This document shows positions 6,130-59,095 of a stretch of DNA of 64,000 nucleotides, in pieces. The notes under the pieces were generated by a model. The model was given only the letters and a program-made list of their open reading frames with translations. It was not told the DNA's origin and ran no database searches. The DNA is from Bryoerythrophyllum caledonicum (lineage: Eukaryota > Streptophyta > Bryopsida > Pottiales > Pottiaceae): the NCBI GenBank assembly GCA_963971425.1, contig OZ020514.1, positions 29,060,569 to 29,124,568 of the forward strand, given 5' to 3'. A program made the position numbers and the translations under genes. How positions within the stretch are numbered: position 1 is the first letter of the stretch; each line of letters starts with the position of its first letter.

Positions 6130-6640
6130 CAGATTACCAATCTAACGTCCTTGGGGGTCTAGGAGGGTCCTGAAACGTCGTTTGGACGTCTCGTCAACCG
6201 CATCGTCTAGGGGATAAAAACCATTTACGCAAGGCTCTGGTAAGTTTTCTGAACCATTGAATGCGCTGAAGCTCCACACCGCTGCATCGCGGCCGACAAA
6301 TACCGATTGGCTGTCTGATTAATCTCTACCGCTCGCTTGATCGGACGGCCGGCGGACCGATCCGACGGCCGCTATCTGATCGCGTGGGCGTGCGACGGCC
6401 GTCCGATCGGTTGAATGGCCCGTCCACCGTCTGATCGAGCGGCTGTCCGAGCAGTCGTTCAATTGGCCGTTCGATCGGTCGGCCGATTGGCGGACAATCG
6501 ATCGGCCGTCCAATCGGATGATCTATTGAAGGATGGCGGTGGTGGCGGTCGGCCTCACGGCCGTCTGCCAACCTTTAAAAGGCCTTCCGCTCTCCATTTT
6601 TCTCACTTTTTTTTTCCCTCTCTATTTTAGAGTGGATGCG
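6130..6640 (+). mobile_element. hAT-type terminus with GC-rich subterminal/promoter island (kinase gene 1)
   Basis: It begins CAGATTACCAATCTAACGTC, matching the terminus at 30029 (CAGGGTTACCAATCCGACGT), and the following 120 bp also align (CCTTGGGGGTCT, ACGTCGTTTGGA, ACCATTTACG, AAGGCTCT). From 6340 to 6550 about ten copies of a CGGCCGTCCGATCGG-like motif lie in both orientations. A TATA-like CTTTAAAAGG at about 6571 precedes kinase gene 1. hAT elements are known for CA(G)-starting inverted repeats and subterminal motif arrays. The partner terminus was not found, so the element is probably truncated on its other side. Confidence 0.72.
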
Positions 6641-6908
6641 GAGTGGCCTTGGCTAGACAAAATCCATTTATAGGCTCCTCATCTTTGGGAGAAAAGAAGT
6701 GATATTATTTGAGGGGGAAGTTTTTTCAAAAGTTTTTTCAAAAGTTTTTTTTAAAACTTTTGAGGAATTCAAACCATTCTTTACGAATTTTAAAAAAAAC
6801 TTTAAGGAATATATAACCAAACTTGAAGTATTTTTTCTAAAAACTTCTAGCAAGTTTACCAACAATCTTGAACTTGTTCTTTTAAGAACTTCCAGTGATT
6901 CTATCAAG

Positions 6909-8331
6909 ATGCCAAAGGACAAGAAGAAGTAGAAGGTTGCAAAGGGTGCTACGCCGAAGTTGCATGCCGTACATGACATTCCATCAGTAAGTTGTAAGAA
7001 TTTTCTCATTGAATTTATTGTAAAATTCTATGAGGATAATCCTCTTCAAGCTTTGGAGAGCAAGTATATCCGATATCGTAACGAGGGCCGGATAAGTTTG
7101 AGATGGAGATGACACAACAGATGATGGATCTTCTTCATGCTCCACAGTGGTATGCAAAGACCGGGAAGAAGGGTTATTTGAAGTTTTTGGATGCCAGAGT
7201 GCACAATGCACTTTGGAATGCCAATAACTTGTTGGCAAAATTTGGAAGACAACATCACGCAAATGATGAAGCTTTCAACGACGTGCTGTTGAAAGCTTAT
7301 TTGTTTGTTGCTCAGATGCAGCCATTTGCCAAAAATAGGAACCGGCATGGATCCGTGGGGTGGTGGAATTCGGAATGGCCCATTTGATTGCCATTCCACC
7401 GATGGTGAGGATCATTACCGTTGACAATGAGTCACGGAGAGGTGGGTATGCCACCATTTGCAGAGTTCGTATTGATGGAGCTCCTGGCATTGAAGCAATT
7501 TGGGAGTTTGCCGCTAAATTGTCCAACCAATGGCAAAAGAGGCCGGACGTGGCAAAAGTGGAGCACCATGATGAGTCAATGGCAGTGAGGATTCCACATC
7601 CGGGTGTCATTCGATTCGTAGCCATTCATGCCGATAAATACGAAGGCTATATCTATTGTTGGAATGGCGGGACTTTGCGAGAGATGTTGAACCGTGATCA
7701 CGAATATGGAGACGATATGTTCATACATCTTCACTACGGGGATTTTCCGGACAATGAGGTCATTCGAGCTCATCACCTAGTTTGTTTTCGCAGAAAATGT
7801 ACCGAGCTCGAGTGGGCATTGTTGCGCATAATGAATGAAGTACACAAGAGCAAAAATCTTTATAATGACTTGTCTCCGGACAATATCCTCTTCCATTTTC
7901 CACTCGTTGAATCGCGGGTGAACATTGGAGTATGCGATCGGGGCATGACAACGAAGGCAACCGAATCAATGCAGTTACTCTATACGTCCACTAATGCTGA
8001 ACAAATGGCCGTGACTATGCGGAGGCGTTGGTGGGTGAATCCTAGAGTTGTGTATTTGCACAAACAAGGTGCAGATGTTCAGATCATTTCCAAGTTATCA
8101 AGGGCTTCGGAGGAGTATGCCACTGCTCGGATAGCGCTACGAATCAACGGCAAGACCATGTCCAAGGACTTCAAGAGGTTACAATGGGACTCTCAAACTT
8201 CCGTAGTATTCTCGAATGGAAAATTTGCGAATACATTTCGCTTGTACATGGACAAAGTGGTCAATCAAGGCAGAGAGGGCATTGGCGGGCTTTCTTATAT
8301 CATCACACGCTTCAGCGACACGTACAATTGA
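6909..8331 (+). pseudogene. Kinase-like gene 1, near-intact kinase core
   Basis: The start (ATG at 6909, MPKDKK) is chosen because kinase-like gene 3 has a matching start at 30568 after the same promoter. An N-terminal domain of about 150 residues (FLIEFIVKFYEDN..., ALWNANNLLAKFG, FNDVLLKAY) comes before the kinase core. The core is open from 7360 to 8331: glycine-rich loop RGGYATICRV (residues 27-36 of that frame), lysine in AAKL (53), catalytic YNDLSPDN (D170, N175), and C-D-R-G in place of D-F-G (193). A stop sits just after the start, and frame changes occur near 7095 and 7375 unless introns remove them. The end at 8331 (TGA) aligns with a tryptophan codon in gene 3, so the ancestral end was probably 8368. 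Substrate unknown; gene loss is likely but not proven. Confidence 0.7.
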
Positions 8332-9587
8332 CCTACGCCACATGAGCATTTTCGGACCACGTATTAGTAATACCACGGACAACTTTTGATTACTTCTCGC
8401 ATTGGTAGATTGTATAGAGTAGCATGCATGTTTCAAAATAACTACAGTTGTAGTCCTAGATTTCTATGATTTGTTTGAAATTTCGACTCGATAAATTAAA
8501 AAACTATTTTTCATATACTTGTGCAAGGACATACATTTCTTTTATTCAATTATATTCCTTTTTATATGGGTTTGCTTGTGTGATGATTCCGGCATTCGAG
8601 CTTATCAATATTCTGTATTTCATGATTATAACTTCTATTAAATTTAGGAGTCCTCGTCATAGTAGATTGTACCAATTTACATAAAAATATCAATACACAC
8701 TTCTTGTCTTTAATAAAAGATCTAATTCCAAGCAAAGTCAAAACCTTTTACATGTTTTTTAGTAGGATAAAAAAAACCATTAATGATATTAACAGAATCA
8801 CGGATGGGTGTGGGTTTTGTTTTACTATGCGATATATGTACTACTATCAACTATTGGGATTATCATTTCATGACAAATCATATTCACCAAAATAAATTAA
8901 AAATTTAATTTAAAAATAAAAATTTAAAAAAATTTTAAATTTTAAAAATTTTTAAATTTTTAAAAAATTATATATATATATATTTTTAATTTATTTATTG
9001 TGATAGTATATGAACTCCTATACATTCCACAATGTTTTTGAATATTTTGTATCCTTTAATTTTTCTTTGATTTTTCTTGCAAAAATGAACTAACATTCTA
9101 AATCAAATTTTTGCTCAAGATTTGATCCTAAATTCATGCACACAATTGACATCTTAAGAATTCAAAGAGAGATGATCCACCAAATACATGGAAGAGAAAA
9201 TTAGAATTTTTTTTGGAAAAAAGACTTATCTTTTGCTTCAATCTATAAAATCTCTCCATCTGTTTCATCAACTTTTGTGAAATTTATGAAGCATGTTATT
9301 TTAGATATATTGTTGGGAATATTATGGTCAGCCACTAAATGCCCAATGCAATTTTCCATCAAAAACACTCCAGAACTACTATTTTCAATGCATTCAACAG
9401 AAAATCATACGTAATGTTATTTCAAAGAAGTTAACCGTAGGATCTTGTCCTAAAGTTGTATGAGACTGAGTTGTGAGTAGTTTGATATATTTGACCTTAC
9501 GGATTGAAAGATATCAACCTTTGAAGTGACACATGAACTCTTTTCGATATGTAATCCCTACACATTTCCAATATGATCCTATTGTGT
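8332..9587. other. AT-rich 3' spacer with low-complexity tract
   Basis: No gene is supported. At 8885-8990 there is an A/T tract made of AAATTTAAAATTT words ending in (TA)n, able to fold on itself. At 9420-9560 a weak minus-strand resemblance to repeat R1 appears (CCGTAGGATCTTG, ACGGATTGAAAG). Confidence 0.5.
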
Positions 9588-10160
9588 TCATACATGCGTT
9601 CTACTAGGATACCTTGGACAAAGGTTCCATAAAACTCCTAAATAAATATCATAAAAATTATGACTACCAACACGACCTCAATATTATATCTCAAATTTTC
9701 CATCATACCAAAAATGGGCAAGCTACCTAAATAATGAAGTATTAAAGTTTTTTTGCAACAACTATGCAAATATGGACTCACAAGTACACCTTTTTAGGAT
9801 ATCATAGATTATGCTAATATATGGCAAATGCTTGTAGACCAATTTTTTTAATTTGGGAGTAGAAAGATATCCAACTAGAATATGTCCCATTTGTAACACT
9901 ATAGGATCATTAACATGGATACATGTCTTACTTAAATGTCAACAAGACCATATACACTCATTAATTGTCAAAAGACAGAACAAAGCAATCTAAGAAATGA
10001 AACGCAAGTAATAGTGTCCTCAACCAAATCTTGCTACCTCATCTTCATGTACGTTGGTAACTTCAACAATAATCCACAAAAAAACACAATCCCCTCATGG
10101 TTATTACCATTTACATGTAGGTCCCCAAAATGCCATTGTAATGCTTGACATACTATGCAT
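9588..10160 (+). mobile_element. LINE fragment, C-terminal and 3' part (older copy)
   Basis: It parallels the downstream LINE copies: a conserved stretch starting GATACCTTGGACAAAGGTTCC, then a Cys-rich knuckle (CPIC), HVLLKCQ, HIHSLIVK, and a C-terminal motif N-F-N-N-N-P-x-x-N-T-I-P-x-W-L-L-P-F-T-C, then C-H-C-N-A. The frame is interrupted several times, and it is more diverged than the copy at 11150-12054. No reverse transcriptase core remains. Confidence 0.7.
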
Positions 10161-10164
10161 TTGC

Positions 10165-10750
10165 GGTTTATCATCCAAAAAACTCCCACCCACCATTTGC
10201 AAAGAGTGTGTCATCCACCAACAATTTTTTGTTTTATCAACCATGGAGTGTTTTTTTATCCAATGACGATACACAACATCCTCGGATTGTTTTTTCATCC
10301 ATTTATTGATTTTTCATCCATAGAATTTTTTTCCATTGTTGGACTGTTTTTCATCCGCAGTGGATTAAACTGTAAGTTAGGTAGAATCTATCAACTGTGA
10401 GTTAATATCTCCCAAAATAATCATTATTTTTGAATTTTGACTTTGGATTTGGGCTCCCTAAGGGGGTTATTAACTAACAGGAAGAAACAAGCTTGCGTTG
10501 AAGGTTTTTCAAAAACCACATTGGTCTGAGTGTTTAAACATTTTTTTAAAAGATAAGTTCTATGCCTAACTTTGTAGATACATTGCTAGGGCATTGCTAT
10601 TTGGTTTTCAATATCCATAACAATATGAATCAAAGAAGTGTATACAATGATTTATACAAACATGGATACATTAAAATGCATAGGCATCCAAATATAAATT
10701 ACAAAGATACTTATAGAATGTTTTGGTTGCATTCATTGATATTGTAAAAT
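10165..10750 (+). repeat. Interspersed repeat X, copy 1
   Basis: About 580 bp alignable with 33230-33725. The first part holds about five spaced TTTTCATCC / GGACTGTTTTT words. The second part is a shared unique block (AAAATAATCATTATTT, GGCTCCCTAAGGGG, TTCTATGCCTAACT, TGCATAGGCATCCAAATA, TTCATTGATATTGTA). In both places a LINE fragment on the same strand follows. The class is unknown. The next 400 bp (10751-11150) hold nothing I recognise. Confidence 0.7.
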
Positions 10751-11149
10751 GCCTCAATTGAGACAATGACATGAATGATGATGATAGGCACCTAAAGAAT
10801 ATGGTTGGATGAAAGGGATATTTGCAAAAGCATGCATAAATTCAAACATGTAGAGTTTGAAGCACACTCTTAGCTTTTCCATCCACCGAGTTCACGTGTA
10901 ATTAAATATAGGAATTTATATGACAATGTCATGTAACTTTTGAACCATAGGTCGGATTTTTACGAAACTTAAGTCCATGCGAAGCTAATGAAAACTTTCC
11001 AATTCAATGATAGGTTTCAGAAAATAATATCTAGAATTGAGGACGTGGTACACTACCCAAACTCAAAATGTCCTACTAGGGGAATCTTGGGCATTTTAAG
11101 GTTGAAGTAGAGCTTTGGCTTTTTCCCCCCTTGTTTCTTATTGCACAAA

Positions 11150-12054
11150 GTAAATGTACATTCTTTGTGTTTTAACATTTTCCTAGAACAACTTTCCGAA
11201 CTCACATCCATAGCAAATATTCTAAACATACATCGCCTATACACAAAAATGGCCTCACCACCAACTATACAAACCACCGTAAACCAAAGCAAAAGGTGGT
11301 CAAAACTAAACTACATCAATAACACATTAGATTATCTCATGATACCTCCACCCCTCCCAAACAACCAAAGATAACCCTACCAAAGTTTAACCCAACACGT
11401 AGCTATCATACCGATGGTTCCTTCAAACCACCAAAACAAATTAGCCTGGGAAACTGGCGCAAAGAAAAAGCTGGCTATGGCATATGTAATCCTATCAAAG
11501 AAATTAAATTAGCCAAAAGACTCCATGGACTACAAAATATCCTTAGATCAGAACTTATGGCCATACACAATACACTACAAATCATCACAACAAAATACAA
11601 CAATGAACCCATACACAAATTCACAAATTTTATCAATGCACTTTATCTACTAAACACCCAAATAACACACCTTACCCTCCACAATAGCCACCACGACCAA
11701 ACAATATTAATATCAATGGTCCAAATGTTACAAAACCGAATACAAATGACAACCCTTCACAAAGTTAGAGCCCATGCCAATATCCATGGAAACGAACAAG
11801 CAGATAAACTTGCTAAAGAGGGCCGCAAAAAATCGCATAAAAATGCCAAAGACTCGTACAAACATGCACATGCTACTCCATACTACTTCCAAAAAGAAGA
11901 ATGGCCTTCTAAAGAAGATACCCCCGACAAAGGCTCGATAAGATTCTTGAACAAATATCTCAAGAAACAAGACCTCTATAACAACCTTGACACAATCACA
12001 AAAACTTCCCTAATGAAGAAAAATGGGCAGGCAACAACAAAATAGACAATGAAC
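11150..12054 (+). mobile_element. LINE fragment with RNase H domain, cut by a hAT insertion
   Basis: A region following the reverse transcriptase (HRLYTKMASPP, NNTLDYL) leads into an RNase H domain: H-T-D-G-S near 11410, G-Y-G-I, S-E-L-M-A-I, and V-R-A-H-A-N-I-H-G-N-E-Q-A-D-K-L-A at about 11765-11810, the usual end of a LINE-type RNase H. The second acidic position looks like N (F-I-N-A-L). An open stretch of 162 codons runs from 11557. The copy stops abruptly at CAATGAAC (12047-12054), next to a hAT-type terminus. The missing 3' part begins with the same 8 bases at 30028, on the minus strand. Confidence 0.82.
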
Positions 12055-12420
12055 CAGAGTTGTCAGGATACTCGACGTCAATGACGTCCGATCGTCCAGA
12101 CAGAGGACCTCCTCGGCTCCATGAGGACGTTCGGTGAACTAACGACTTTGGTCAATTTACCCGGGGATAAACAACCATCTGCTACCCTGGCCGACCGCCC
12201 GACATGCGGAGCCGAGCATCCAACGGCGGAGGCGACCACGCTACAGACGACCATTCCATACGCTTGGGACGACCGCACGGCCCTCCGCCGTTTGCCGAGG
12301 CAGACGGGCCTCTCCCAATCGCATGGCGGACCGCCGAGCGATCGCCGTTTCGCTGTCGGCCTCGCCGACCGCTCCCCCGACCTCGTCCGTTGGTAGATTG
12401 ACATCCTCCCGTCTCACAAC
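12047..12420 (+). mobile_element. hAT-type terminus with 8-bp flank CAATGAAC and GC-rich subterminal region
   Basis: CAATGAAC (12047-12054) ends the LINE. The terminus then starts CAGAGTTGTCAGGATACTCG at 12055 and runs into GACGTC and a GC-rich island to about 12400, rich in CGGTC/CCGACCG words (GGCCGACCGCCCG, CTCGCCGACCGCTCC). The same 8 bp abut the terminus at 30029 in the opposite orientation, which is what a hAT target-site duplication would give. The transposase pseudogene starts about 590 bp inside, so this is taken as the transposase end of the element. Confidence 0.8.
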
Positions 12421-12640
12421 GGTCATAATCACCGTGGGTATTAAAAAAACAACACATGGAGCCTCATTTCACTTCTGAACTTTTGTTTCCCAACAACTTT
12501 GAGCTGCACTATGTATCCATTGCCGGGTAATCATCGAGTTTGGAAGTCTTCAATATCAAAGTTTCTTTAGGAACTCATGATATTTTCTTCCACATACTAC
12601 CTATCACGTTTGTTCGTTTCTAGATATTATACCCATCAAA

Positions 12641-13499
12641 ATGGCCACCAAACCTTGGTCTCCTTGGTATACGGAAATCACTGAAGTACAAGGTAGAAAG
12701 ATCGCTTCCCTTCAATGCAATCTTTGTCATCTCATTTTGGCAAAAAGGCTAGAACGACAACTTAGTCATCTTAGGTACAAAGAACTCCCTGGCAAGCGCA
12801 ATAGCGGTGTTGGCCTCTATACCAAATTGACAACCCGCGTACAGACTTTATTTTAAAATTGTCGTGGCCACTACCCGAAACATAATGGAGAACTTTTTTC
12901 CGAACATTGCCCTACCCCACCATTGAAATTTGCGTCTGCCTCAGAATATAGCACGCCCAAGTCCACTGGTAGAGACTATTGTGTAGAATCCACTCAAGTT
13001 CCTCCCATGATTTTACCATCAATTATGGTTGAACCGACCTCCACCTTCCATGACTCCACCAAACAAGGGAGTGTAGGTGGCACCTTCCCCAGATTGGTGA
13101 GGCAATCTGTGATCGAAAAAGGCTTTTAAGAAGTGGAGCGGCAGAAGCTAGACAAAGTGTGGGCAAAGTTTTTCTACGAAGAAAACGTGCCGTTTGTTGT
13201 AGCACGGAATGCAGCGTTCAAGGAAGCCGTGACGGAGACTGCCTCTTTCAAAAAACCATATATCCCACCTTCTTACCATGACATTCGGACAAGGTTGTTA
13301 GGACAAGCGAAGGCTGATTTAGAAGCACAACTTAATAATAGAGTGTTCGAGAGTGTTTGGAAGTTTGGAGGAACTCTAGCCTTGGATGGGTGGACATCTG
13401 TGACTAGTTGCCCTTTGTGCAATGCAATGCTTGTGTCTCCCGCTGGAGAGCGCTTCTTGGGAGTCGTAGATACTACGGGCAAAGAAAACAATGTCAAAA
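12641..13499 (+). pseudogene. hAT transposase, N-terminal half (BED finger + DUF659)
   Basis: One reading frame runs from ATG 12641. A BED-type zinc finger region begins with C26-x2-C29 and H43. A linker follows, then a DUF659 block that includes LDGWTSVTSCPL, SPAGERFLGVVDTTG (about 13380-13485), the hallmark of hAT transposases. Two in-frame TAA codons (12854 and 13127) interrupt it, but no frameshift is seen, so it is a pseudogene or has unrecognised introns. Homology ends near 13495, where a copy of repeat R1 begins. The catalytic second half and the hATC dimerisation domain are absent from the window. It lies inside the terminus at 12055 and points away from it, as expected for a hAT element. 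Confidence 0.85.
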
Positions 13500-14180
13500 A
13501 TAAAACGGGCAAGGTACCAAAAACAAAAACGTCTTACCACATAAAACTTAGAGATTTTAACTTTTTATACTTTTGATTTTTTCCACAACAATATGTGGTG
13601 TAGACCTTCATATTGACCGTTTGGATCATCAATCTAAAACATATCAAGTATCTAAAAAATAAAACATTAATTGCCCATTTTTGAGCTTCCACTACTAGCA
13701 TAGTTGACTTGAATAAGCTACACCCTTTTTCTACCTCTAACAATTGGTGTATTAGGAACTAACATCATCCTAAACTACCATTAGTAATGGATTTAGGCTT
13801 TATCTAGTGCAAAAATTTAATAACAAGTAGTGAATAGCATGGGAGCTATGCAAGCCTTTCAATCCATGCGGTTAAAATTTATGAAATTTTGTGGGGACAT
13901 TAACAAAGAAGTGTTTATTGAGATCCTACGGTTAGATGTAGAAATAAAAAGGTTTTGTCTCCCTTCTTAGGCATTATACTATAGCCGGGCAGTTTTGAAG
14001 TGTTTTTGGTGCAAAAATGCCTTGGTCCTTTAGGGATTAAAAATGTTTGGAGGTTTAAAACTTGGTCCACACCATTTTTTTTTATACAAACGCACAAATC
14101 CTTATGAAGCTTAAGTACATCCATAATCACACCACTATTATCAAGTAGAATGTAGACACTACTATTCATATTTTTTTAGT
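13500..14180 (-). repeat. Repeat R1 copy interrupting the hAT transposase
   Basis: The minus strand carries the R1 landmark order (AAAGGACCAAGGCATTTTTG, CGCATGGATTGAAAGG, CACCAATTGTTAGAGG, CAAACGGTCAATATGAAGG, GGTACCTTGCCCG). Its outer end abuts the point where transposase homology stops. Its other end lies about 100 bp from the end of RING gene A, so R1 or a linked deletion probably removed the 3' half of the transposase. Confidence 0.7.
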
Positions 14181-14279
14181 ATGCATAATGTAGTACGAAA
14201 ATGGAAAAATACATTCAATGCTAAAAGATGAGGCATTGTAAGAAAAATGACTCTTGGTACCGCAAAAACAAAAATACAC

Positions 14280-16564
14280 CTAGTCAATATTCATCGGGCT
14301 ATTAGTAGTGCCACTTGCCCCTACCTCATTGTCATGTGCCCCTACGTGCATAGGGAGGTCTTCATCTGAGCCCAATACAAGTCTACGAGACGCCAATCGT
14401 GTTCTCCTTGCTGATTGATCTTCATCCAACATGGCCCTTAGGATTTGGAATTGCATGAGCTGGTCGAGCGCTTGCCGTATCCCTAGACTGTGCACATCGA
14501 GCAAGAAGTCCATTCCGTCATTTCGGAAAATTTCTTTCCACTCTGATTCCGATAATTGTCTTAGTTCTTGCGAGTCCGGTTGGTCAACGTCGTGAGAAAT
14601 GCGATCCCCGTTGTCGTCTGTGATGCGAACTCCGTCAACGGCCCACAACCATTGCCGTGGATGAGGTCCGAAACAAAATTGCTCCCCGTTCTCGTCTCAA
14701 TGGCCATTAAAGCATTGGTAGAAGAAATTTCGTTTTCCTTGACCGTATTTGTCCTTTAACGGGATCAAATTCTTGCACACCCGGACAATCTGTTCCGGGT
14801 CCCTTTCCCAACCCCACTCGTTTGAGAGGAGCATCTTATCCAACGAGTGCATCTTCAATTTCCAGCTCCACACCAAATCCTTTCCCCACATCTATGATTA
14901 ATCATGAGCGTTCATCGCATAATACTCCCAATGCGGGGGCATGTATGGAACTAATCCAAAAAGTTCGTACAATCGCTCGTGAAAAGGGGCCTCGCACAAT
15001 GTGCACCGCCGGCGTACAACCATCAAGCTAATCAAGCAAAATGGATGGTACAAGTGCTCACAAGTACCTAGATGCATCCCACCTTCTGGACCAAATGGGT
15101 TTAGACAAATTGAGCAAGTCGTACCGTCGGATACAAAGCTCAAAGGTTATGGCCACAATAACATGGGGTTGCCCCGATGATCGAGGGTGGATGAAACCTC
15201 CTTTTTGATATCCCAATTGTAACGGGACCAATCGATGATTGTTTGCCCACCGGCGGTTTTCACCATCGCCATTTCATCCATCCTGAAAAGATCATCTACG
15301 AGGGCCCACGACGTCAAACCAAACACCCTCTCCTGGTTGTTTTCGGTATAGTTGTTGTCGATTTTTTCGAATTCCGCCAGCAATTGTCGGGACCGATCGA
15401 CCGTGAAGACCCAGGCCAACTTCCATTGATAGTAATGTTCTACCAACAAATCCAAGCGACTTTGTAGTCTTGAATTCTCTTCAAGCGCTTTAGCGAGCTC
15501 TTTGTCGCCGTCACCCGCCGCACCCTCTTCTTTGTTGACCATAGCTTTGTCTGCATTGGTAGGGGCCTCATCAAACAATAATTAATCGTCATGGGTTGAC
15601 ACGTGTACAAGCCCTTCCTCCTCCCGTCGTGGATTCCGATCTTTTGTGGTCATTGTATTCGCTTGTAGGGCAAGTCGGAGCTCCTCCATATCACGTCGTT
15701 GCTGGTCAATAACAATGTTTTTATCATTGACTTCAACTCTCAACTTGCAAACCTCATCGCGCAATGACAATAGTTTTGTCGTCTTCCCTTCCAATTGGTT
15801 CAACAAGGTTTGGATAGTCCTGGCAAAAATAACACCAATAGAGGCTTCAAACGTTCGATCAACAACCGCGGGGGATCGTACTTGAGCTACAACTTCATTA
15901 ATGGTATCGTTAACGACTACGTTAACCGTCTATTTTGCCCTCCTTCGTTTGGTGCGTGCTTGTGTCCTTTGGCTCCTTGTGATTGGAATGTGGGATCCAT
16001 CAGAGTCTGTATCCGTGTTTGAGGGATCGGTCTCGTACGTGTCGACCGGTTCAGTCTTCGCCATCAATTTGCCCAATCCGCCTTCTGGATACCTCCGTGC
16101 CTCCATTGGAATCAATCCATTCGCCGGAGAAGGAACTCTTATGCTATCTCCCATGGCTTTCAACGTGGACCAATCCACCGTCTTGACCAATTTTACCTCC
16201 GCGTGGACACTTCGCGCAAGAAAGAGATTTACTTCATTGCGTTAGATATAAGGGATGTCGTACAAGACCTGGTATACTTCAATGCACCAATTTTTGAACG
16301 CCTCGTCGGTGCACTTCCATAAATTTGCCTTGCAAAAGCGTCGGTGATAATTGTGTCGCTCCTCTGGGAAAGCCTTGTCGATATGGCACCACTCGATCAA
16401 GTTTGCGCAATCTTCAAAACTCCATGGCTCCGAACTTCTTCCCAACCTTTAAAAGTCAATTTAACAGGATTCCGAAGCACATGCAACCTCTTCGGCTGTT
16501 TGTTTCCCGATCGTAGTCGACTCTTGTCTCGTTCTTCTTTATTCATTTTTACCGGCGTGGCCAT
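14280..16564 (-). pseudogene. RING gene A: unrecognised N-terminal domain, coiled coil, RING-H2 finger
   Basis: The start is ATG at 16564 (MATPVKMNKEER), chosen because gene B also begins MAT after its promoter. The N-terminal domain shares with gene B a C-x3-I/K...H-I-D-K segment, W-K-C-T-D, E-V-Y-Q-x-L and V-D-W-S. A coiled coil follows (LLSLRDEVCKLRVEV), then a RING-H2 finger at 14994-15116 with spacing C-x2-C-x14-C-x-H-x2-H-x2-C-x10-C-x2-C, which suggests ubiquitin-ligase activity. A C-terminal module has F-F-Y-Q-C-F-N-G-H and F-C-F-G-P. After one frame change near 16400, a single frame holds to 14280 with about eight in-frame stops and no further frameshift. It is divergent from kinase-like gene 2. 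Confidence 0.72.
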
Positions 16565-17035
16565 GGGTGGGGAAAATCTGAATAATGTATGTGATGCGAA
16601 TGGATGAAGCCCTCACACGACGCCCACAACCAACTCAATTAAGAGGTAGATGAAGAGGGAGTATGTGAGGCGGGGACAATTAGGGGTGTGCACGATATTA
16701 TATAGCCAATAGACAAAGCACTAGTCTAGGTCCCCGGGTAGGGGCGGGGACATCTCCGCCCTACCCCGGGCAGGGCAGAGACGTCCTCGCCTCTGCCCAA
16801 GTAAGGCCGGCACGTCTTCGCAAAAAAACCCTAAACCACATAAATAGGGGACTTTTGTCCTTATTCTCTGCCAAGTCCACTCCCTAGGCCTCACGTGTCA
16901 GTTTGCTTTGCGGCCTGAAAGTGAGTTTGGTGGGTGGTCGGGCTGGGCCCATTTATTGCACCCAAGCTCTTTGCGGTTTTTTATTAAAACCATCAAATTG
17001 GAATTTTGACCACGGTAGGGAGTTGACTATCACAT
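16565..17035. promoter_or_regulatory. Bidirectional GC-rich promoter between RING gene A and kinase-like gene 2
   Basis: 472 bp separate two divergent starts. Minus-strand TATATAA lies at about 16698-16704, some 135 bp before the RING gene ATG. Plus-strand CATAAATAGG lies at 16839-16848, some 190 bp before the kinase ATG. Between them, 16735-16825 is a GC-rich island with a GGGGCGGGGACATCTCCGCC motif and two decayed repeats of it. The same motif recurs near 18730-18780. The arrangement suggests shared control of both genes. Confidence 0.6.
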
Positions 17036-18315
17036 ATGGCGGGAGAAGGAAGTAGGTCGATGGAGAAGTGCCCCCAATTTATGGATTTGGATGATGTTGG
17101 TGAGACGGTGCTTCCGTCCACCCACACGGAGTTGACTTTGGGATCATTGAATCCGTCGTCATCGAGCGGGAAGAGGCGGAAGAAGACACCAAATCCGAAC
17201 ATGCCACCGCACAAATACTAGTGGCGAAGATGAGGATGATCCAGGGCTTCGTTCAACAGTACTCTTCTTCTCGTAAGAAGAAACTAGCTCCTTGGAAAGC
17301 GACTATTGAAGAGCAAATTTTGGCTCACTACGTCGGTGGAACTTTCAAGTGGCTTGAAAGTTGCGCTAAGGTGATTCCAATGTCAGGACAGAAAGCGGTG
17401 GGTGGCTATGGGGCTGTAGGGAAGGTGATGATAACCAAATTGGAGAACATTCCAAGTTGGATTTACTTCGCCGGAAAGACTCTGACCAACACCAATGAGA
17501 GGGAAAAGCGTTGAAACATCATCAATGAGGCTGGAGGGTGTCCGGTGGTGCATCCAGGGATCATTAGACTTGCGTACATCCACCCGAAAACTATGGAAGG
17601 GTACATGCTCTGGTGGAATGGGGGATCTCTCTATAGTTTTTGGTCCAAGTTTGACTCGAAAGTGGACGAAGCATTGCCGTTTGAACGAATTGAGATGCAT
17701 CCGAATATCGGGTTGTCGATCCAAGAGCTTCGGTGGGTAAAAACTTACCGCCAGAATCGAGTGAACCTCGCGCTATCGTTGCTTGTCTTTGTAGGGAAAC
17801 GCCACGACGCGAATTATATACACAATGACATCTCTCCATCGAATGTTTTGCTCCACTTTGATGAGTGGAAACCCGATACGGTGTACATCGGAATTTGCGA
17901 TTGGGGGCTTTCTAGTCGGGTTGTGGAGAATGAGCCATCAAGGTATGGTTATCAATTCAAGGAGGAGCTTCACCAAAAGAGAGAACGGCAAGGGTTTGTG
18001 GCACCAAAACTGTTCTATGTTTTTGGGCCGCATGACTCCACCAACTCGCTTGAAGTCATGCAACGGTCACACCTCTACTCCAAGGCAGCAGATGCATTTG
18101 CGGTGGGTTGGATTTGTGAAAAAATTTGGAAAGAAGATTGGGACACTTTGTATTTCACCACCAAAAACACGGAGCAGTATGTAAACCTGAAGCTGAAATT
18201 TACAGCGTTGCATACACAACTGCTCGAAGAACGGTCTTCTGTGCCAGATGTTTTAGACACATTAATGAAACCCCCCCACAATTGGACTATGCCTCTATGT
18301 TGTTACCGACAATAG
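17036..18315 (+). pseudogene. Kinase-like gene 2, best-preserved kinase motifs
   Basis: The start is ATG at 17036 (MAGEGSRSMEK). The frame changes near 17165-17220, and from there one frame runs to 18315 with a single TGA at 17512, so this is nearly intact. Motifs: glycine loop GGYGAVGKV (about 17401-17427), lysine in F-A-G-K-T (about 17476), WWNGGSL hinge region, catalytic I-H-N-D-I-S-P-S-N (about 17815-17844) and C-D-W-G replacing D-F-G (about 17896). Lysine, both aspartates and asparagine of a working kinase are kept, but the usual catalytic-loop lysine is serine. It is divergent from RING gene A. I recognise a plant kinase-like fold, not a named family. Confidence 0.75.
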
Positions 18316-18720
18316 TTTTTTGTTAATTAGCTCCATTGGTTTCGCATGTGGTGGTTAAATAGGCAATATGGCATCTTCGTAGAAGAATATGTGTACTTGG
18401 CAATTGCCATACGTTATTTTTTAATCAATACTGGATACGTCCAAATCTTAAATTTTCAGTCCGAGATTTGCATTTGTTCAAGCACAAATAATTATTGATA
18501 CACTTATGATACACTAAATGTGCACAAGTGAAAGAAATCATTTTAATATTCTTACCAAAATTGACAAATAGTGTAGTAAATGGCATTTAGTGTCCGGTTA
18601 TGTCACTACACTAAGTGCCTCATTTGCAATTGGTGTATGGGTTCACTTTCAGTGTATATTACACTAAACATAAATTTTAGTGTACCAACATATTGTAACT
18701 TTAAACACTATAATCTAACT
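18316..18720 (+). repeat. 3' flank of kinase-like gene 2 with clustered TACACTAA motifs
   Basis: Between 18500 and 18715 the words ACACTAA / TTAGTGT occur about ten times in both orientations (for example ATACACTAAATG, AATAGTGTAG, CTACACTAAGTG, TTACACTAAAC). The spacing is irregular. This resembles the subterminal region of a DNA transposon, but no terminal repeat of its own was found. No coding region. Confidence 0.5.
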
Positions 18721-18724
18721 CATG

Positions 18725-19001
18725 AAGAGGCGGGGACGTCCCCGCCCCTTTACGGGCAGGGGCGGGGACGTCTCCGCCCCACCTCCCTCTTAGCATTAGT
18801 CCCCGCCCCTACTCAAACATGACCCTGTCCTACGTGGCTGCGATGTGGTGCCAACATGGCTACCACGTGGCCTGTTTTTTACCTTGCGGATAAGTCAACC
18901 CTGTGTTGACTGTATCGGACGGGCGAGAGCTCTACTGGACGGGCGAATCGGACGAACGGGCGAACCAGACGTCCGTCCAATATGACAACCCTGGCTCCCA
19001 T
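18725..19001 (-). mobile_element. hAT-type terminus with GC-rich subterminal repeats
   Basis: Read on the minus strand from 18993 it begins CAGGGTTGTCATATTGGACG, close to the terminus at 12055. Next come about five CGGACGGGCGA-like words (18915-18970) and, at 18728-18785, two GGCGGGGACGTCCCCGCCCC-like palindromes. The outer 8 bp, GCTCCCAT (18994-19001), do not match the flank at 12047, so 12055-18993 is not a simple element even though its ends face each other. It abuts a coding fragment. Confidence 0.68.
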
Positions 19002-19206
19002 GCATCCATTTGTTCGCGCGAGACCTAGTAATCCCACTAATGTCATTGAAACTTGCAAGAGATTCAAAACCATTCAAACATTGTCGATCAAACGGAGAAT
19101 CAAACAAGAAGCCACCACCGATTATGAAGACGATCCTTCGGGATCTAGTGGAGCTGAAATCGAAGGAAAGAGCGATTACAAACTTCCTACCGACGTGAAT
19201 GAGTAG
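18994..19206 (+). pseudogene. C-terminal coding fragment cut by a hAT terminus, unidentified
   Basis: One frame encodes about 70 residues ending ...SDYKLPTDVNE before TAG at 19204, with an acidic serine/glycine tail (DYEDDPSGSSG) that looks like a genuine protein C terminus. It starts abruptly at the transposon end, so the upstream exons were left on the other side of the insertion or lost. Family unknown; a transposase tail is possible. A possible polyadenylation region with AATAAAAA lies near 19356. Confidence 0.4.
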
Positions 19207-19826
19207 GAAAATTTTGTCCATTTACGTAGTATGCGTTCACCGCGCTTATTTTTATTGCAAATAGTGTAGTTCAAGTTCATGGAACTTTATAGTCATATCG
19301 CGGATGCATTGAAAGCTTCTATTGTTTCAATTGAGTTTTGGATTTATTCCGAATATTAATAAAAAAATTTCATATATGCACAAGTTTTATATCCATCTCT
19401 TTTGCTATTCTATTGTCTTGTGGTTTGTGTATGGATTTAGTCATCCCCTACGAAATGACTTAAACATGAGATTCTTGTTGTGTACCGAATGTACTTAGAG
19501 TTTGCAAACTTCTATTTATTTCACTACTTCGCATGCACCTGATGCACTACAACATTTCTAACATCCACATACAATTGAAGAATTAACAAGTGGACAAAAT
19601 ATCTTACAAATTGTAAACCTTTATTTCAAAAAGTATGCTCCACCACGGCATGCTTCGAACTTCTTGCCACACCATTCCTTCAACAACAACTACGCTAAGC
19701 TTTACGTTCATCTACCCCATTCTACTACCTTGAAGAAGAAGGCTCGTTCGTATGATCCGTTCGTATGCTACTACGAGTCTGCGGTCTCTGACTTGGCCTA
19801 TCAATCCTTCCACCCTCTTTGTATTC
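19207..19826. other. Spacer between the cut fragment and RING gene B
   Basis: AT-rich 3' flanking DNA, nothing recognised. From about 19640 the minus strand regains the composition of gene B's 3' region, but no protein feature extends there. Confidence 0.4.
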
Positions 19827-22800
19827 TCAATCTACGGCTGCAATTTCCCTATGCATCTCTGACCCCCAACTATCGTCGTTGTCATTGCCATCATCCTTCT
19901 TCCGCTTCTCGCCAGGATCCACCTTCTTGGCCGCAAAGATTTCCATGGCCTTCTCAATTCATTCCACCACCTTGTTCACAAAAGCGTCATTCTCAGGGAA
20001 TGACACCAATAATTCCCCTTGGGGCTTCTGTAGCACATTCCGCCAATAGCCAATGATGTCTCCAATCCTCCGATCAAATGCTTGCACGGCATCCTAATAA
20101 GAACATTCTTCATCTTCAAAAGAAGTCTCTTTTGTTGAACACCTTTGTTTTGCGGCCTCTTCCAACTTTGCAAGGCCCAGGGCTCTTCCAATCAAGGTAC
20201 GATTGTACTTCTTACACTCTCCCAACTCAATGCCATCGTCTACCTCATGCTACACACCATTTTCTCTCTTCTCAGCACTCCTTGGAGGAAATCGGAAGAA
20301 ACTCTTGTGGTCAGTGCTCCAATGCCCCCCAAAGTTGCGGCAAAACAACTCTTGTTGCTCGCCATCTTCAATCTCTCGCGCCTTTATCTTCACCTCATAG
20401 TTTTGAGTCATCCAAAAGAATGGATCACATTCGATCCCATACTCCTCGTATAGTTGGTGACAAGAAAACTCACTATTCTAAATAAGTGATTTTCCCTAGT
20501 CACGATAGTTATGGGATTTATTCAGAAGTTGATCCAAGGGTAGATTTCATCGGTTGAACTCGTGCCCCAGTGGCATAACATCTCATATCTCCATTACTCC
20601 ATTGAATCTTGTGCTAAATGGAGAGCGACACATGGGACACACCGATTGTATTATAGAACTTGCGGATATGCAAGTAATATGAAAGTTATGGCCACATTGG
20701 CCCAACGTATAAGCTCCCTCCGGACCTGAATGTTTTTGGCACAAGCTGCATTTATCGTTAAGGAATGCCGGGACATGGTTGCAAGTATGATTACTCTTCG
20801 CTCTGATTCCACAAAATGTGATGGGAAGATATTGTAGGGCACCCATCATTCCTCCACTTCCAAAGCCCAGTCAATACCATTGCTCTTTCTTTTCCGATGA
20901 TAGTTTGTGCGGTCCATCATCTCCGATACATCACCCCAAATAGTAACTTTTGTGGGCTCATGTCCACGTTGTCCAATGAATTTCTTGAATCTCTCCAATG
21001 AGGTATCCAAGAGTTCACATGATTCTTGTAATTCGGCGGCAAATTTTTTGAGATCATGTTGTGCTTTTGAGACCATGGTCTCTCTATCTTGTAGGCGATG
21101 AACCCAACCCAACCAAGGCATTGTGTTAGCGTTGCATGGTGTGTCGTCCACCGATCTCAATGTCCTCTGCAATGTCTCTGGTTCGGCTCGTGCCTCAATC
21201 CTCTCCATATTTGCTACCACCAACTTCTCTGACACCAATTCCGTCTCCCTTCACATTCCACTATCGCCTTTCCTTTTCCGTGCGCTTCTAGCCGTACTTG
21301 ACTACTCTCAACTCATACTGCCAATTCAACAAATGAAGGCTCGGCCGGTCTGCTAGATTTGATTGGTGAGGCATCCTCTCCATCATTCCTTTCAAACTTG
21401 GAAAGAAAAAAGTCGTTTGAAGTTTCGGCGTTGCCCTCAATGACTACCACATCCACCTCAAGTACCGGCACATTCATCTTCTCCGACATCTTTTTAAGGT
21501 CTCTCCTACTTGCCTCCACATGCCGCTTGTTCCCTTCCAATTCACATTTTAGCTGTCTAGTGAGGGCATCATTTTTATCGGCCTCTTTCTCTAATTCTGT
21601 CACTACATGTAATAGCGCGATCCTTCCTTCTAACATTGGCGTTATACATGAAGCCAATGTGTCGAAGCTGATAGCGGCTCGTAGCACACTCGGAGTTATA
21701 CTTGAAAATGCATGAGCCATATCTAGAAGAGAAGGAGCCATTGCTGCAAGAATTTCGGCCCCGTCCATCAAATTACATGCCACTCTAACTACTCCTTTTA
21801 TTTTGGCCGCCTCGCTCCAATCACTTTGCAGTTCGGCTGGAACACCAAATTTCGTTGTTTGAACGCATGTTTAAGTCCACTTAACACTCAAGTTGAGCAA
21901 CTCTTTGAACTTATCCTTATTTGGCATTGTTCGAAGCATTTCTTCAATACCGGAAATTATACCCTTGTTAATCATCGGGTCATTGGATTTGGTTCCAATG
22001 TTTCCCACGTTGAAGTGCTTAGCCCGACATCCATTGTCTCTGCTGCCATGCCTTCCAAAGTTTGAACGTTTAGAACAGCGGTTTTTTCTCCATCCGTATT
22101 TTCCCCCTCGTTCTGCATTACCATTGTCTTCACCTCCTACCATCACAATATTTTGAATATCCGATTGTATGGGGTCTTCTATCGTCCTTTCATCCAAAGA
22201 GTCTTCGGGGATTATAGTTGACAATATATTGTCGACCACAATGTCCAAATGCTTTTCAGACTCCATCACAACAACAACCTCCTCTACCAAACGTTGTATT
22301 TTTGGCATGGTATCCACCGCGGTCATCCGACAAGGCCTTTTCTTCAACTCCTCTAAAACACCCTTTGTCAAGGCCAATTCAGGATTGAATAAATCAAGAA
22401 TATGCTTATGATTTTGCCCAATCCTAAGCAAATATTGTGTAGTAGTCAGAAACGTGCTCCAATCCACCTTTCGTTTGAACACGACCTCGGTGTATATCGT
22501 TGATAGTAGGCTGTAATTGAAAAACCCTTTGCTTCTTGGACGATTCCCAAACAAAGCCTGCCAAACCTCCTCCGCACGATAAATGAAGTGGTCATCTTCG
22601 CACATCCACGGCTTGCAAGCAAAGTACGTCGTATAACTTATGTGGCAAACTCTTGGCCAAAGTTTATCGATGTGGTACATCTTCACATATTTCTTGCATG
22701 TCTTGGATATCCAATAATCCTTTGTTTCAGCCTCCCAACCTCCCTCCGCTTGAATGTCTTCATTGTCCAAAATCTCCCACCATAGATCATGAGTAGCACA

Positions 22801-22881
22801 TTTTTGTTTGATCTTTTTCTTCGACCCTCCCGTTCTAATTTCACTCACATCCTCCACCATGATCCCCTTTTCCGTTGCCAT
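19827..22881 (-). pseudogene. RING gene B: unrecognised N-terminal domain, coiled coil, RING-H2 finger
   Basis: The start is ATG at 22881 (MATEKGIMVEDV), preferred over an upstream in-frame ATG because gene A also starts MAT. About 335 codons are open, with the shared domain: K-K-Y-V-K-M-Y-H-I-D-K-L-W-P-R, W-M-C-E-D-D, E-E-V-W-Q-A-L, Y-T-E-V-V-F-K-R-K-V-D-W-S-T. Next come a basic, glycine-rich stretch, a coiled coil (ELEKEADKNDALTRQ), a second coiled coil (TMVSKAQHDLKKF), and a RING-H2 finger at 20628-20750 with the same spacing as gene A. The C-terminal part has LFCRNFGGHWS and a lysine-rich end before TGA at 19827. In-frame stops lie at about 21871 and 21313, with frame changes near 21240, 20850 and 20580 and two more stops downstream. 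Confidence 0.72.
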
Positions 22882-23235
22882 GGTAATGCTTGTTTTTAAA
22901 AAAACAAGCGCCAACACTCTAGTATTTATTCGAGAATGAATGGTTTGGCAAATTTAGAAACAAAATATCCGGTCACAATAAAAGGACCCCATCTCCTCAC
23001 CTAGTAAGAGCAAGAAGTACAAAAAAATTGAAATTGCAACACATCCGACTCGGCATGAGAGGAGAGGAAGTGGGAAAAAAACAAGCGGCCGTCCGCTTGT
23101 ATACGCGGATGGCCGCCTAACCTAACCGGGCGGCCGTCCGAACCGGCGGACGGCCATTGGGTCGGCCGTCCGAACCGGCCATCGGCCGAGCCTGGCCGAC
23201 CGCGCCGGCAGGCCGTCAAGCTCGCGTCCACCTGT
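22882..23235 (-). promoter_or_regulatory. GC-rich motif island upstream of RING gene B
   Basis: At 23080-23230 about eight CGGACGGCC / GGCCGTCCG words lie in a 150-bp GC-rich block inside AT-rich DNA, like the islands before kinase genes 1 and 3 and gene C. Between it and the ATG is AT-rich leader with a possible TATA-like AATAAATACTAG near 22925. No hAT-type terminal repeat was found beside this island, so this copy may have lost its end. Confidence 0.55.
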
Positions 23236-23479
23236 TTTTTTTTTTTTATCTTCAAAAAAAGTAATGAAAGGCACAAGGACATTCATTTTTTTTTCCAATT
23301 TAACCCCTATTAGCCCAAGTGTACCTCCAGGGTACAGAAATGTACACTTTAACAAGCAATTAGCTTTCAATTCGTACAGTCAAATTCACAAAATTTTGAC
23401 GACATTATCTCATATGAAATTAGAAGGAAATCCTATGGTTACAATTTCAATGAGTTCTTCTTTGTAGTTTTTAATCAAC
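23236..23479. other. Short spacer beyond the gene B promoter
   Basis: AT-rich DNA with a T run at 23237-23246 and no gene seen. Confidence 0.3.
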
Positions 23480-24190
23480 GAAGTAGAGATTAATCTAAAA
23501 TAGCTTGGAGCATTAGGAGTTAAAGGAGTCGAGAGGATTTTTTTTTTAAATTGGGAAAAAAAACAAATAAATAAATGAAGAGGACAAAAGGAAGAGAGTG
23601 ACAATATACAAAATTCCAGATCTGAACTAAAACGGAAAGAGAAGGGAGGGAGAGAGAAAGGGACATTTACAAATGTAGATCTCATTTAATTTAGATGGAG
23701 TGAGTGGAGAAGGGAGAGATGGACAATCGTTCAAGAAGATCCTAGTTAAATTAGAAGAAGAGGATCCAAGGCAAAAGAATTCCATTTTTTTTATTTGGAA
23801 GGAGTGGAGAAGAATGCAAAAAAATATAAATAAAAGTAAAGAAGGTTCTTCAAAAAACAAAAAAATATTTGGAGGCAGAAGGGAGAGAGGGACAATTATG
23901 AATGAAGTCTTCATTAAATTACAAAGGAAGGAAGAAGGTTTAGGCTTTAGGGACAATTATTGATTCAGATATTAAGTAATTTAGAAGGTGTGAGTTTGGG
24001 GAAGAAGATCCCAATTTTTTTTAAAAAGACAAAAGGAAGAGAGGGACAACCAAATAATAATGGAACTCTCAACTAATTTAACTAGAAGGAGAAGAGAACG
24101 AGAGAGAGAGGGACAATAATAAATGTACACCTTATTAAATTTGTCACATCTTGTTTTCTCTTGTACAAGATGTGTTATAAACCTTCTCAT
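23480..24190 (+). repeat. Degenerate purine-rich tandem repeat
   Basis: The phrase GGGAGAGAGGGACAAT... followed by an AAG-TCT-ATTAAATTA-like block and GAAGAAG recurs about six times (near 23645, 23715, 23885, 23950, 24040 and 24100) with spacings of 60-170 bp. The copies are strongly diverged. It runs straight into a minus-strand copy of R1. The small open frames are purine-rich artefacts. Confidence 0.55.
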
Positions 24191-24860
24191 TGATTGTTTG
24201 GATAAACATTCTAAAAGATATTTGGTGCACAAGAAAATGAAATGTGAATTGGCCTTGTTTGAACCTCCACTCCTTGCACAAACTTATTTGAATATGCTAC
24301 TCTCGTTTTTTACCTCTATAAATTGGTGTATATGGAATTAACATCATGCTTCACAGAATAGTATAAGATTACAAACTTTTGGATTGTAAAAAGTTTATAG
24401 AAAGCAAAGTCAAAGTCTAGGATTCCAGTCAACGATGGAAGAAAATGAACCATTGTTTTTATTTTACACACTATAATCTATCAATCCATTTGGTGGATTG
24501 CAACCATAAGAGCATGGTGTGTTCAAATAGAAGTCTACTTTAGGATCTTACGGTTGAAAATCTAAAGATGACTTGAAAAATGTGATTGCTATGCCTCTTT
24601 TTCAATGTGACGGTTTTGGACTAATTTTTTAGCAAAATTGGCCGTGTTCCTTTAGAGTTTAAGACAAGGGTAAGAGGCCTAGACCTTGCATATTACATAA
24701 ATATGATACGAAGTGTTGTCAAAGTCTCATTGTCTCATGAATATGGATCAACGGAGGGAAGAGAATGAGTTGTTGTTTGGATTGTAAACACCATGATTTA
24801 TCAATCCGTGCGGTCGATAGGAAAGAAATGTATATGGCATCTTCAAATAAATGATGTTAT
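24191..24860 (-). repeat. Repeat R1, one copy plus a partial second
   Basis: Minus-strand R1 landmarks: CACCAATTTATAGAGG, TAATCTTATACTATTC, ACAATGGTTCATTTTCTTC, CAAATGGATTGATAGATTAT, CCGTAAGATCCTAAAGTAG. From about 24660 the order starts again in part (GACCGCACGGATTGATAAAT, AACTCATTCTCTTCC), so a second truncated copy follows in tandem. Confidence 0.65.
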
Positions 24861-25829
24861 TAGTAGTACAAAGTTGGTAACGTGTCTATAATACATTATA
24901 ACATAAACATAGGTTACATTCTTATGCAAATATCATACGTGTATAAGATTTCTATATATTTCTCAAATTGTCTCTGAATACAAAATATTGTATAGAGTTT
25001 TTATTTTTATTTGTACACGACATCCTTTATGTACATGATGTATTAAGTTTTACTTATCAATGGATGCAAGTTGTATGTGGCTCTTTTTAGATGAATATTA
25101 GATATTTTTCATATAAAATCTAGGGTCTCGTATTTTTCTGATGGAGTTTCACATGTGGAATTCCTAATTTTTATTTTATTTTTTTGACGCAAGGAAAATA
25201 CTGGAACAAAATTGAAAAATTGATAAATTTTCTTGTAATCAACATGGAAACTCAAAACAAAATTGAAAATTACGCGGTGACCCTATACCTTATCTCTTCT
25301 ATTCGTCAAATTGCTACACTTTCAAATGGTTTTGTTTGCTAAAATCTCAAAGAAAGAAGGCTATGCGCCATTGCTTACATACAAATTCTCAAAGTTATTG
25401 GACAAGATTCACATGAATTCCCAAGGATTTTTATGAAGCTCATCATATTTTATTCATAAAATGAGAATCGCCAAATTAAAAATGAAAATATTCATTGCAT
25501 TACACACGAATCAAAAATAAGAAATCCCACATATGTGAAAAGGTCTCATTCTCTCTTGGATTTTATATACAATACATTTTAGTTTTCATGTTCATGTAAA
25601 TTGAAACTTTCAGATTTGTCAATTTTATGTTTTTTGGGCGCTTCAAAGTAAATTTGTACTATTATCAGCATGAAAAAATCCAAAATCCATGGAAACTTTT
25701 GTCATTGTTGTTGGAGGTGCTCGATATCCAACCCTTTATTGTATAACGGTCCATTCTATAACCACATTATCTTCCCACAAATCTTGTAGAAGGCCCATCC
25801 ATGTTTGATATTCCACAAAATGGCATGGA
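24861..25829. other. AT-rich spacer, no gene recognised
   Basis: No sustained coding signal on either strand and no clear relation to the repeats named elsewhere, apart from isolated words near the R1 copy that follows. Confidence 0.4.
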
Positions 25830-26620: not shown

Positions 26621-27169
26621 TTAATACATTCAAATAGCTCTTCCCAGGGACAATCTAACATTAAATTTTCAAAAGTTGTTTTTTTTTTTTTCAAATACTA
26701 GAAACCTGCCCAGAATTGAAAACTCGCCGCAAAAGAGATTTAGTCATGTAGAGGCCAAAAATCCTCCCATACAAAGTTATGCCTATGCCGTGGGCAATGT
26801 ATCCTTGGCCCTTGGAACATTGTGCTCGTGGGCCATTCCAATTTCCTCCTGGTTCGTCAAAGATAAAAAAAAAGGATACGAGCATCTCTCATATGTTATG
26901 TAGGATATTTTGAGCGGAACCATTCTTAAGAAATTATATAATTCATATGCTTCCACGCGCACCATGGAATATCCATGTGTAAGCGCATAAAATCTTCCCA
27001 ACATTCCTCTGACCAATAATGCACGTGACTCTATCTCCTAATTAGGAGTGCACGTGCAATGTCAACCGTCCCAGAAAAGGAAGTGGAGGACAAGGGAAGG
27101 GAGTTGGGAGGGGAGAGAGTTGGGAGGGGAGGGAGCGTAGAGAAGTGGATGAGCGTAGAGAAGTGGACG
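26621..27169. other. Unassigned DNA upstream of gene C
   Basis: A short GC-richer patch at 26780-26850 (TTGGCCCTTGG, GTGGGCC) may be regulatory. At 27090-27170 there is a purine-rich run with two copies of GAGGGGAGAGAGTTGG-like and two of TAGAGAAGTGGA. No gene supported. Confidence 0.35.
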
Positions 27170-39110: not shown

Positions 39111-39149
39111 TGTGGTATAGAGCTCTCCCATGACCGGTTCCTTATACTA

Positions 39150-59091: not shown

Positions 59092-59095
59092 GCAA

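Follow-up and report, generated by a model that had tools for sequence, protein, structure and literature searches.

Elements U and T and the features of the window

The window, the whole 64,000-nucleotide stretch of the Bryoerythrophyllum caledonicum genome that was analysed, corresponds to C1:29060569-29124568, and the genome searched comprises 437 Mb in 894 contigs. The PDB entries that best match its Rubisco are land-plant Rubiscos, ranked above those of Chlamydomonas, in keeping with a green plant host. Two elements of one hAT transposon family with a kinase-like gene (kinase-1) were identified in it, U and T, as well as a nested element with a gene of a second kinase family (kinase-2). 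The features are listed below by window position; F1 and F2 are further copies of the U and T family.

6130-12054, + strand: element T, an older member of the family, present as its left half and interrupted at 12054/12055 (mirror 57202-63126)
6337-6517: motif island of T (9 hits, shuffle mean 0.03)
6909-8331, + strand: kinase-1 of T, with an open frame only at 7339-8331 (mirror 60925-61917)
12055-29718, - strand: right-hand portion of U in mirror copy, with the right end at 12055, in a 99.96% identical inverted repeat
30021-30028, + strand: left copy of the 8-bp target duplicate GTTCATTG
30029-57201, + strand: element U, a decayed, nested, two-ended hAT of the kinase-bearing family, with both ends and collinear with F1 and F2
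30218-30305: subterminal island of CGGCCGTCCGATCGG-like motifs of U, upstream of the kinase (4 of 5 hits)
30564-32158, + strand: kinase-1 relic of U with in-frame stops, 82-84% DNA identity to the F1 kinase region (end estimated from the list of open reading frames)
40785-41804, - strand: ORF2 (zinc-finger-like) relic of U, 84-87% identity to F1
46375-49543, + strand: relic of a RING-finger gene in U (approximate limits, from F2)
50072-50262, - strand: 3' tail of the U transposase, severed from the 5' part by a nested insertion (limits estimated from F2)
50264-55761, + strand: nested element of the second kinase family, with terminus CAGGGTTGTCATATTGG at 50264 (limit set where homology to U resumes)
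50941-52223, - strand: kinase-2, with an approximate 5' limit (mirror 17515-18315 and upstream), dN/dS 0.32 to locus L053 with 1 stop skipped
52692-54976, + strand: RING-like gene of the second family, with stops, divergent from kinase-2
55683-56675, - strand: 5' part (DUF659) of the hAT transposase of U, 87.7% identity to F1 over 55765-56871
57202-57209, + strand: right copy of the 8-bp target duplicate GTTCATTG

The left termini of T (window 6130) and U (window 30029) read CAGATTACCAATC and CAGGGTTACCAATCC, and about 150 bp from these termini align with each other and with three further copies. U ends at 57201 with ..CCTGACAACTCTG, and the perfect 8-bp duplicate GTTCATTG on each side of the unit confirms its target site duplication (TSD). 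Relics of all four genes (kinase-1, ORF2, RING, and transposase) occur in U in the order found in F2. The stretch 46039-50262 has 86.7% identity to F2, where the frame matches zf-RING_2 (7e-7), and the DUF659 match of the U transposase (55683-56126; 4.1e-7, 30.2 bits) lies below the cut-off of 34.7.

T was split by the insertion of U. The parts that remain beside U are 57202-63126 and at least 29719-30028, and the two T pieces join at a single F1 point (~8616-8621). Neither a right end nor a target duplicate of T was found within the window, where the only right-type ends, 12055 and 57201, are those of U and its mirror. In the kinase of T, an open frame covers just the C-terminal two thirds. 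An inverted repeat of 24,463 bp (5256-29718 / 39538-64000) is 99.96% identical and extends to the right end of the window; because it mirrors the termini at 6130 and 63126, these represent one element. Its inner edges fall on homologous transposon DNA. Since kinase-2 has an additional 100% identical copy at C1:29038497, the inverted repeat is interpreted as either a recent duplication at this locus or an artefact of the assembly.

Two other features were observed. An insertion of ~5.1 kb in U (34419-39537) has a duplicated edge of ~9 bp (34410-34418 / 39538-39546), a 569-codon frame (35998-37707, - strand), and repeats near 34651-34965 and 38000-39100. An RNase H-like frame occurs at 11323-12045 and 33860-34418 (Pfam 1.5e-9). 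The region 11534-12054 is homologous to F1 8098-8621, and the frame looks like an apparent retroelement relic retained within the hAT family.

Nine places with at most three mismatches from CGGCCGTCCGATCGG are present in 6130-6630 (mean 0.03 in 200 mononucleotide shuffles) and five in 30029-30400 (shuffle mean 0.02), and TATA-like boxes were recognized by eye at 6572 (CCTTTAAAAGG) and 30342 (CCTATAAGAGG). The order reported by the initial annotation for the two loci (terminus, matching subterminal DNA, motif island, TATA-like box, and inward-reading kinase) is therefore shared, and the 8-bp duplicate that it placed at the outer flank of 30029 has its second copy just past 57201. Motif clusters in the window lie near the starts of kinase-1, ORF2, and RING. 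This suggests that they may provide a common regulatory input, though no CGGCCGTCCGATCGG-like motif was found in the last 400 bp ahead of the right end of U.

Termini, gene content, and frequency of the kinase

All five units with both ends read, namely four fetched elements and U, are flanked by a perfect 8-bp TSD (GTTTTCGG in E03, GTTAGAGT in E14, AATCCAAG in E12, AGTTCAAT in F1, and GTTCATTG in U), which the initial annotation had proposed to check for complete units. In addition to 8-bp TSDs in 5/5 units, the family has two other characters of hAT elements: short terminal inverted repeats (TIRs) with a CAGGG start (CAGGGTTACCAAT / CAGGGTTGTCAGG), which are inverted repeats over only about the first 7 bp, and a C-terminal dimerization domain in the transposase (Dimer_Tnp_hAT, 8.6e-9, 35.5 bits, cut-off 21.4). 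The transposase translation shows, by eye, a C..C..H pattern that may belong to an N-terminal BED zinc finger, and a Pfam BED match was absent at E <= 1.

The left-end pattern occurs at a minimum of 392 places in the genome (at most two mismatches) and the right-end pattern at a minimum of 219 (at most one mismatch), with no occurrence of either reversed control. Right ends may be under-counted because 200-N assembly gaps sit in or near GC-rich right subterminal stretches (L021, L023, L024, L025, L026, F1, and F2). Large contigs contain 94 exact right ends, and 14 of these have a hAT domain 2.1-4.9 kb inward (among the matches listed); right-end/hAT pairs within 6 kb always share orientation (14/14). 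Both exact ends were found for 22 units, including a C10 pair of 6,164 bp. Seven of these measure 0.4-1.2 kb, in which a kinase gene would not fit; the other 15 measure 5.0-23.7 kb, and in 10 of them a kinase lies just inside (among the kinase matches listed). Three pairs of left-type termini were seen 0.8-2.7 kb apart (C2:33397979/33400236, C6:7341603/7342412, and C9:8859321/8861995), with the termini oriented face to face in two pairs and back to back in the third; they are possibly nested copies or units bearing two left-type ends.

F1 is 15,034 bp long with one 200-N gap, and has both ends and a TSD. It encodes kinase-1 (526-codon frame, 494 amino acids from the ATG), ORF2 (413-codon frame, - strand), and a transposase (885-codon frame, - strand). 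The transposase frame is open, convergent with the kinase, and matches DUF659 (1.2e-33) in addition to the dimerization domain; DUF659-type transposases are known from hAT superfamily elements. F2 has the F1 gene order with an extra RING-finger frame (29.8 bits, cut-off 27.3) and a fragmented transposase frame, and a search for its right end did not find one. E03 (10,546 bp), E14 (9,304 bp), and E12 (9,644 bp) each have both ends and a 200-N gap. They keep the kinase and ORF2, and when read end to end save for the gap they contained no match to the transposase. These three were among six loci that were extended; assembly gaps or a break hide the right ends of the other three (E13, E09, and E04). 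All six contain ORF2, E04 only part of it.

A genome search for the Pfam hAT dimerization domain gave 150 places scored from 1150 candidates. Among the matches listed, 13 pairs of a kinase and a hAT dimerization domain lie within 30 kb; in 12 of them the two converge from a distance of 10.0-17.5 kb, the kinase lying upstream. On large contigs, convergence was seen in 9 of the 10 pairs spaced by at most 20 kb, whereas 1000 random placements gave a mean of 0.34 and never more than 4. The element is organized as TIR, motif island, kinase-1 (rightward), ORF2 (leftward), hAT transposase (leftward), and TIR, between 8-bp TSDs, and our confidence in this structure as a whole is high. A hAT cut-and-paste family has very probably taken a protein-kinase-like gene as its own standing gene. 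Elements of the hAT superfamily are usually described as one-gene transposons, and a set of kinase, zinc-finger-like, and transposase genes is unusual for such an element.

The kinase was also approached from the gene side, using a 330-aa frame as the query (121 places scored from 1835 first-look candidates). Most listed places have ~70% identity, and many have a 526-codon open frame. Twenty loci were fetched with 4.5 kb per side, 19 of them with a stop-free open frame of 508-529 codons, plus L020, which was already known from the terminus search; the choice of open frames for 19 of the 20 favours intact copies. A terminus (at most three mismatches) lies 1.33-1.56 kb ahead of the kinase match in 20/20. 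L001-L019 have 94-99% identity to L002 or L013 from the terminus inward, with indels, and L020 is more divergent (~76%). Approached from the termini, the first 100 exact matches listed include 29 with a same-strand kinase 1.27-1.52 kb inward (among the kinase matches listed), and in a random 20 of the other 71 a kinase was found six times in a 600-bp stretch 1.3-1.9 kb inside. For the 14 sampled termini without one, the stretch was all N in one and contained other element parts in four (two reversed); three had none because their units of 398, 406, and 1181 bp (C4:22860693, C6:3736621, and C8:28906040) end before the stretch; and six, neither all N nor short units, showed nothing recognizable. 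From the 29 of 100 and the 6 of 20 of the remainder, about half of the exact termini lead straight to a kinase. These counts indicate that the kinase is common in the elements and not universal.

A host kinase family beside which a transposon was merely inserted would agree with the very large number of first-look candidates (1835 for kinase-1 and 1998 for kinase-2), and plant kinase families are often very large. Copy identity ending exactly at the terminus and TSD already refutes it, and the narrow distance between terminus and kinase in 29/29 termini and 20/20 loci leaves this explanation with next to no probability. The claim of the initial annotation that the kinase belongs to the mobile unit is thus largely right, and its proposal to list what lies inside the termini did return a recurring kinase. 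It had named kinase copies mostly without termini, or termini mostly without a kinase, as observations that would count against mobility. The former is contradicted by the fetched loci, none of which lacks a terminus (0/20); as to the latter, some of the sampled termini with no kinase directly inside belong to short units or lead into other element parts. The term "cargo" understates the place of the kinase, because a complete unit, as the initial annotation had not seen, also bears a hAT transposase and a third gene.

Kinase proteins, selection, and a second family

The kinase frame of T (7339-8331) matches Pfam Pkinase with an E value of 1.7e-4, below the curated cut-off, and an intact kinase-1 homologue has 1.5e-5 and 25.0 bits, below the curated cut-off of 31.7. 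The catalytic Lys, HxD..N, and DxG motifs are present in the kinase-1 alignment. N328-D329, N334, D352, and G354 are invariant in 12 aligned rows, as is K212 in the 11 rows covering that site; H327 is replaced by Tyr in the window T copy. A structure prediction of the window kinase from a two-row alignment (P0001 and P0002) gave a pLDDT of 32. A profile of A1 matched kinases in the PDB at best at 2.5e-4, kinase-2 alone had no PDB match at E <= 1e-3, and the 24 pattern matches that the kinase alignment picked up in viral contigs all went unconfirmed, so that no relative was found there.

Kinase-1 may be an active kinase or a pseudokinase. Retention of the fold as a non-catalytic binding module is rather unlikely. 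It would account for the motifs that, by eye, depart from the canonical kinase pattern in kinase-1 (GGYATI where a complete glycine loop would stand, no recognizable APE, and DRG for DWG in 2 of 11 rows, L008 and the window T copy), whereas kinase-1 conserves the Lys (FAAK), HND/YND...N, and D-x-G, and kinase-2, also as read by eye, retains the whole series GGYGAV, AGK, HNDISPSN, DWG, and APE.

The pooled pN/pS of kinase-1 is 0.35 over 190 pairs from 20 copies (F1 and L001-L019), with L020 left out (two stops). These copies contain zero in-frame stops and a one-base gap in L010; because 19 loci were picked for open frames, the informative value is the ratio and not the lack of stops. At deep divergence, dN/dS is 0.16 for F1 versus L020 (dS 0.91), and 0.20 for F1 versus T (dS 0.85). 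The relic of U has 0.33 with seven stop codons skipped. The transposase has values of 0.52 (F1-F2) and 0.35 (versus U), and ORF2 has 0.74 (F1-F2) and 0.41 (versus U, five stops skipped). Among the six extended loci, ORF2 values range from 0.19 to 3.0 over 15 pairs, of which four exceed 1, with few changes in each comparison. Kinase-1 is under purifying selection at short and long divergence, and by the comparison of dN/dS across copies its constraint is at least as clear as that of the transposase; that of ORF2 is weaker.

Two further readings concern why an intact kinase is kept. Under a Pack-hAT reading, non-autonomous elements would have captured host genes passively, and the gene would do nothing for its carrier; the family resembles Pack-hATs in having gene sequence inside plant hAT elements (PMC8903248, in the excerpt consulted). 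Only 13 of 121 kinases have a hAT domain within 30 kb (among the matches listed), E03, E14, and E12 are without a transposase, and the seven short two-ended units cannot hold a kinase, all of which such capture would explain. Pack-TYPE elements are non-autonomous, carry a captured fragment, and have no transposase (same excerpt of PMC8903248), whereas F1 is an autonomous copy that combines an open transposase frame with an open, selected, and recurrent kinase at the same place. Purifying selection on the kinase between elements at dS ~0.9 also weighs against passive capture, as does the occurrence, in a separate terminus family, of another kinase family whose partner protein is related. Passive capture is already strained by an autonomous element whose intact kinase has a dN/dS far below 1, and we regard it as highly improbable. 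The kinase could instead be a passenger that benefits the host, with selection acting on the host and not the element. Persistence of kinase and ORF2 in the transposase-less E03, E14, and E12 would fit a passenger, but hundreds of dispersed, nearly alike copies would exceed what a host needs, and we consider it very unlikely. The preferred reading is that the kinase would serve the element and not the host, because selection spans copies at unrelated loci.

The kinase-2 frame (17515-18315; mirror 50941-51741) has 31% identity to F1 kinase-1, and 144 places were scored from 1998 candidates. In the window the kinase-2 insertion sits in the transposase of U and starts with CAGGGTTGTCATATTGG at 50264; its far end was not recognized in the window. 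The second-family kinase lies inside a separate CAGGGTTGTC terminus, beside a RING-like gene. The CAGGGTTGTCATATTGG terminus was found at no fewer than 534 places (at most three mismatches). With 100 termini and among the matches listed, 27 of 28 terminus/kinase-2 pairs within 3 kb have one geometry, the terminus lying 648-976 bp past the 3' side of the match. One locus of this family, read over 6 kb, contains an intact kinase of 526 aa, which scores 35.5 bits against Pkinase (cut-off 31.7), and a divergent RING-like frame (24.0 bits, below the cut-off of 27.3). The terminus is what assigns the second family putatively to hAT, because the far end and TSD lie beyond the 6 kb read and a hAT domain occurs within 30 kb of 7 of 144 kinase-2 places, with no fixed geometry (among the matches listed).

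ORF2, the RING gene of U, and the second-family RING-like gene have an N-terminal region of ~105-130 residues in common (pairwise BLASTP E values of 4e-17, 1e-12, and 1e-3), for which no Pfam model scored above its own cut-off. A speculative reading, somewhat less likely than not, is that plant hATs have evolved or exchanged a dedicated two-part module of a kinase and a protein with this shared N-terminus, which may end in a RING, and that two families within a single genome use it to overcome host control or license their own expression.

Proposed function and relation to known systems

The transposase would act in trans to mobilize every copy, as other hAT transposases do, and the kinase and its zinc-finger/RING partner would be trans-acting helpers of the element. 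By analogy, their likeliest role, though itself below even odds, would be in transcription or silencing at the GC-rich motif islands upstream of the element genes; phosphorylation of the transposase or transpososome by the kinase is less probable still, and we think it unlikely. An anti-silencing role would be modelled on VANC of the VANDAL elements, which recognizes short non-coding motifs of related copies and relieves silencing (PMC13317346, in the part of the article consulted). Points that count against the main reading are the kinase-1 score below the Pfam cut-off and the unrecognizable APE motif of kinase-1, the low pLDDT of its model, the choice of open frames among the fetched loci, the roughly half of termini with no kinase directly inside, and the noisy ORF2 ratio.

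Comparison with known systems draws on excerpts of the cited articles. The nearest precedent in them is the TET-bearing IS3EU DNA transposons of rust fungi, in which an alpha-kinase gene and the transposase have opposite orientations (PMC12730594); DNA transposons with a kinase are thus already known. The likeness extends to the kinase as a standing gene, opposite to the transposase, with another accessory enzyme gene between; IS3EU differs in being fungal and having 6-bp TSDs and an alpha-kinase (PMC12730594), whereas the present family is a plant hAT with 8-bp TSDs, a Pkinase-like gene (ePK), and zinc-finger/RING-like partners. TET-bearing hAT7 of Puccinia likewise combines a hAT transposase with an accessory enzyme in a hAT element, but has 7-bp TSDs, and the excerpt mentions no kinase for hAT (PMC12730594). 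VANDAL/VANC and KIU (Ulp1) MULEs are multi-gene plant DNA transposons; they are non-TIR MULEs, the word "kinase" is absent from the text of that article, and anti-silencing is reported there and is an analogy here (PMC13317346). Among the matches listed in open-licence PMC titles and abstract openings, no kinase-bearing hAT was found. The suggestion that kinase cargo is undescribed therefore stands for hAT elements within that literature and does not extend to DNA transposons, given IS3EU, and an ePK-bearing plant hAT has possibly been described elsewhere.

For annotation, transposon kinases can pass for host kinase families of hundreds of members. A family with a selected kinase and zinc-finger/RING-like partners would offer a natural system in which to study how transposons deploy signalling or ubiquitin-type proteins against the host.
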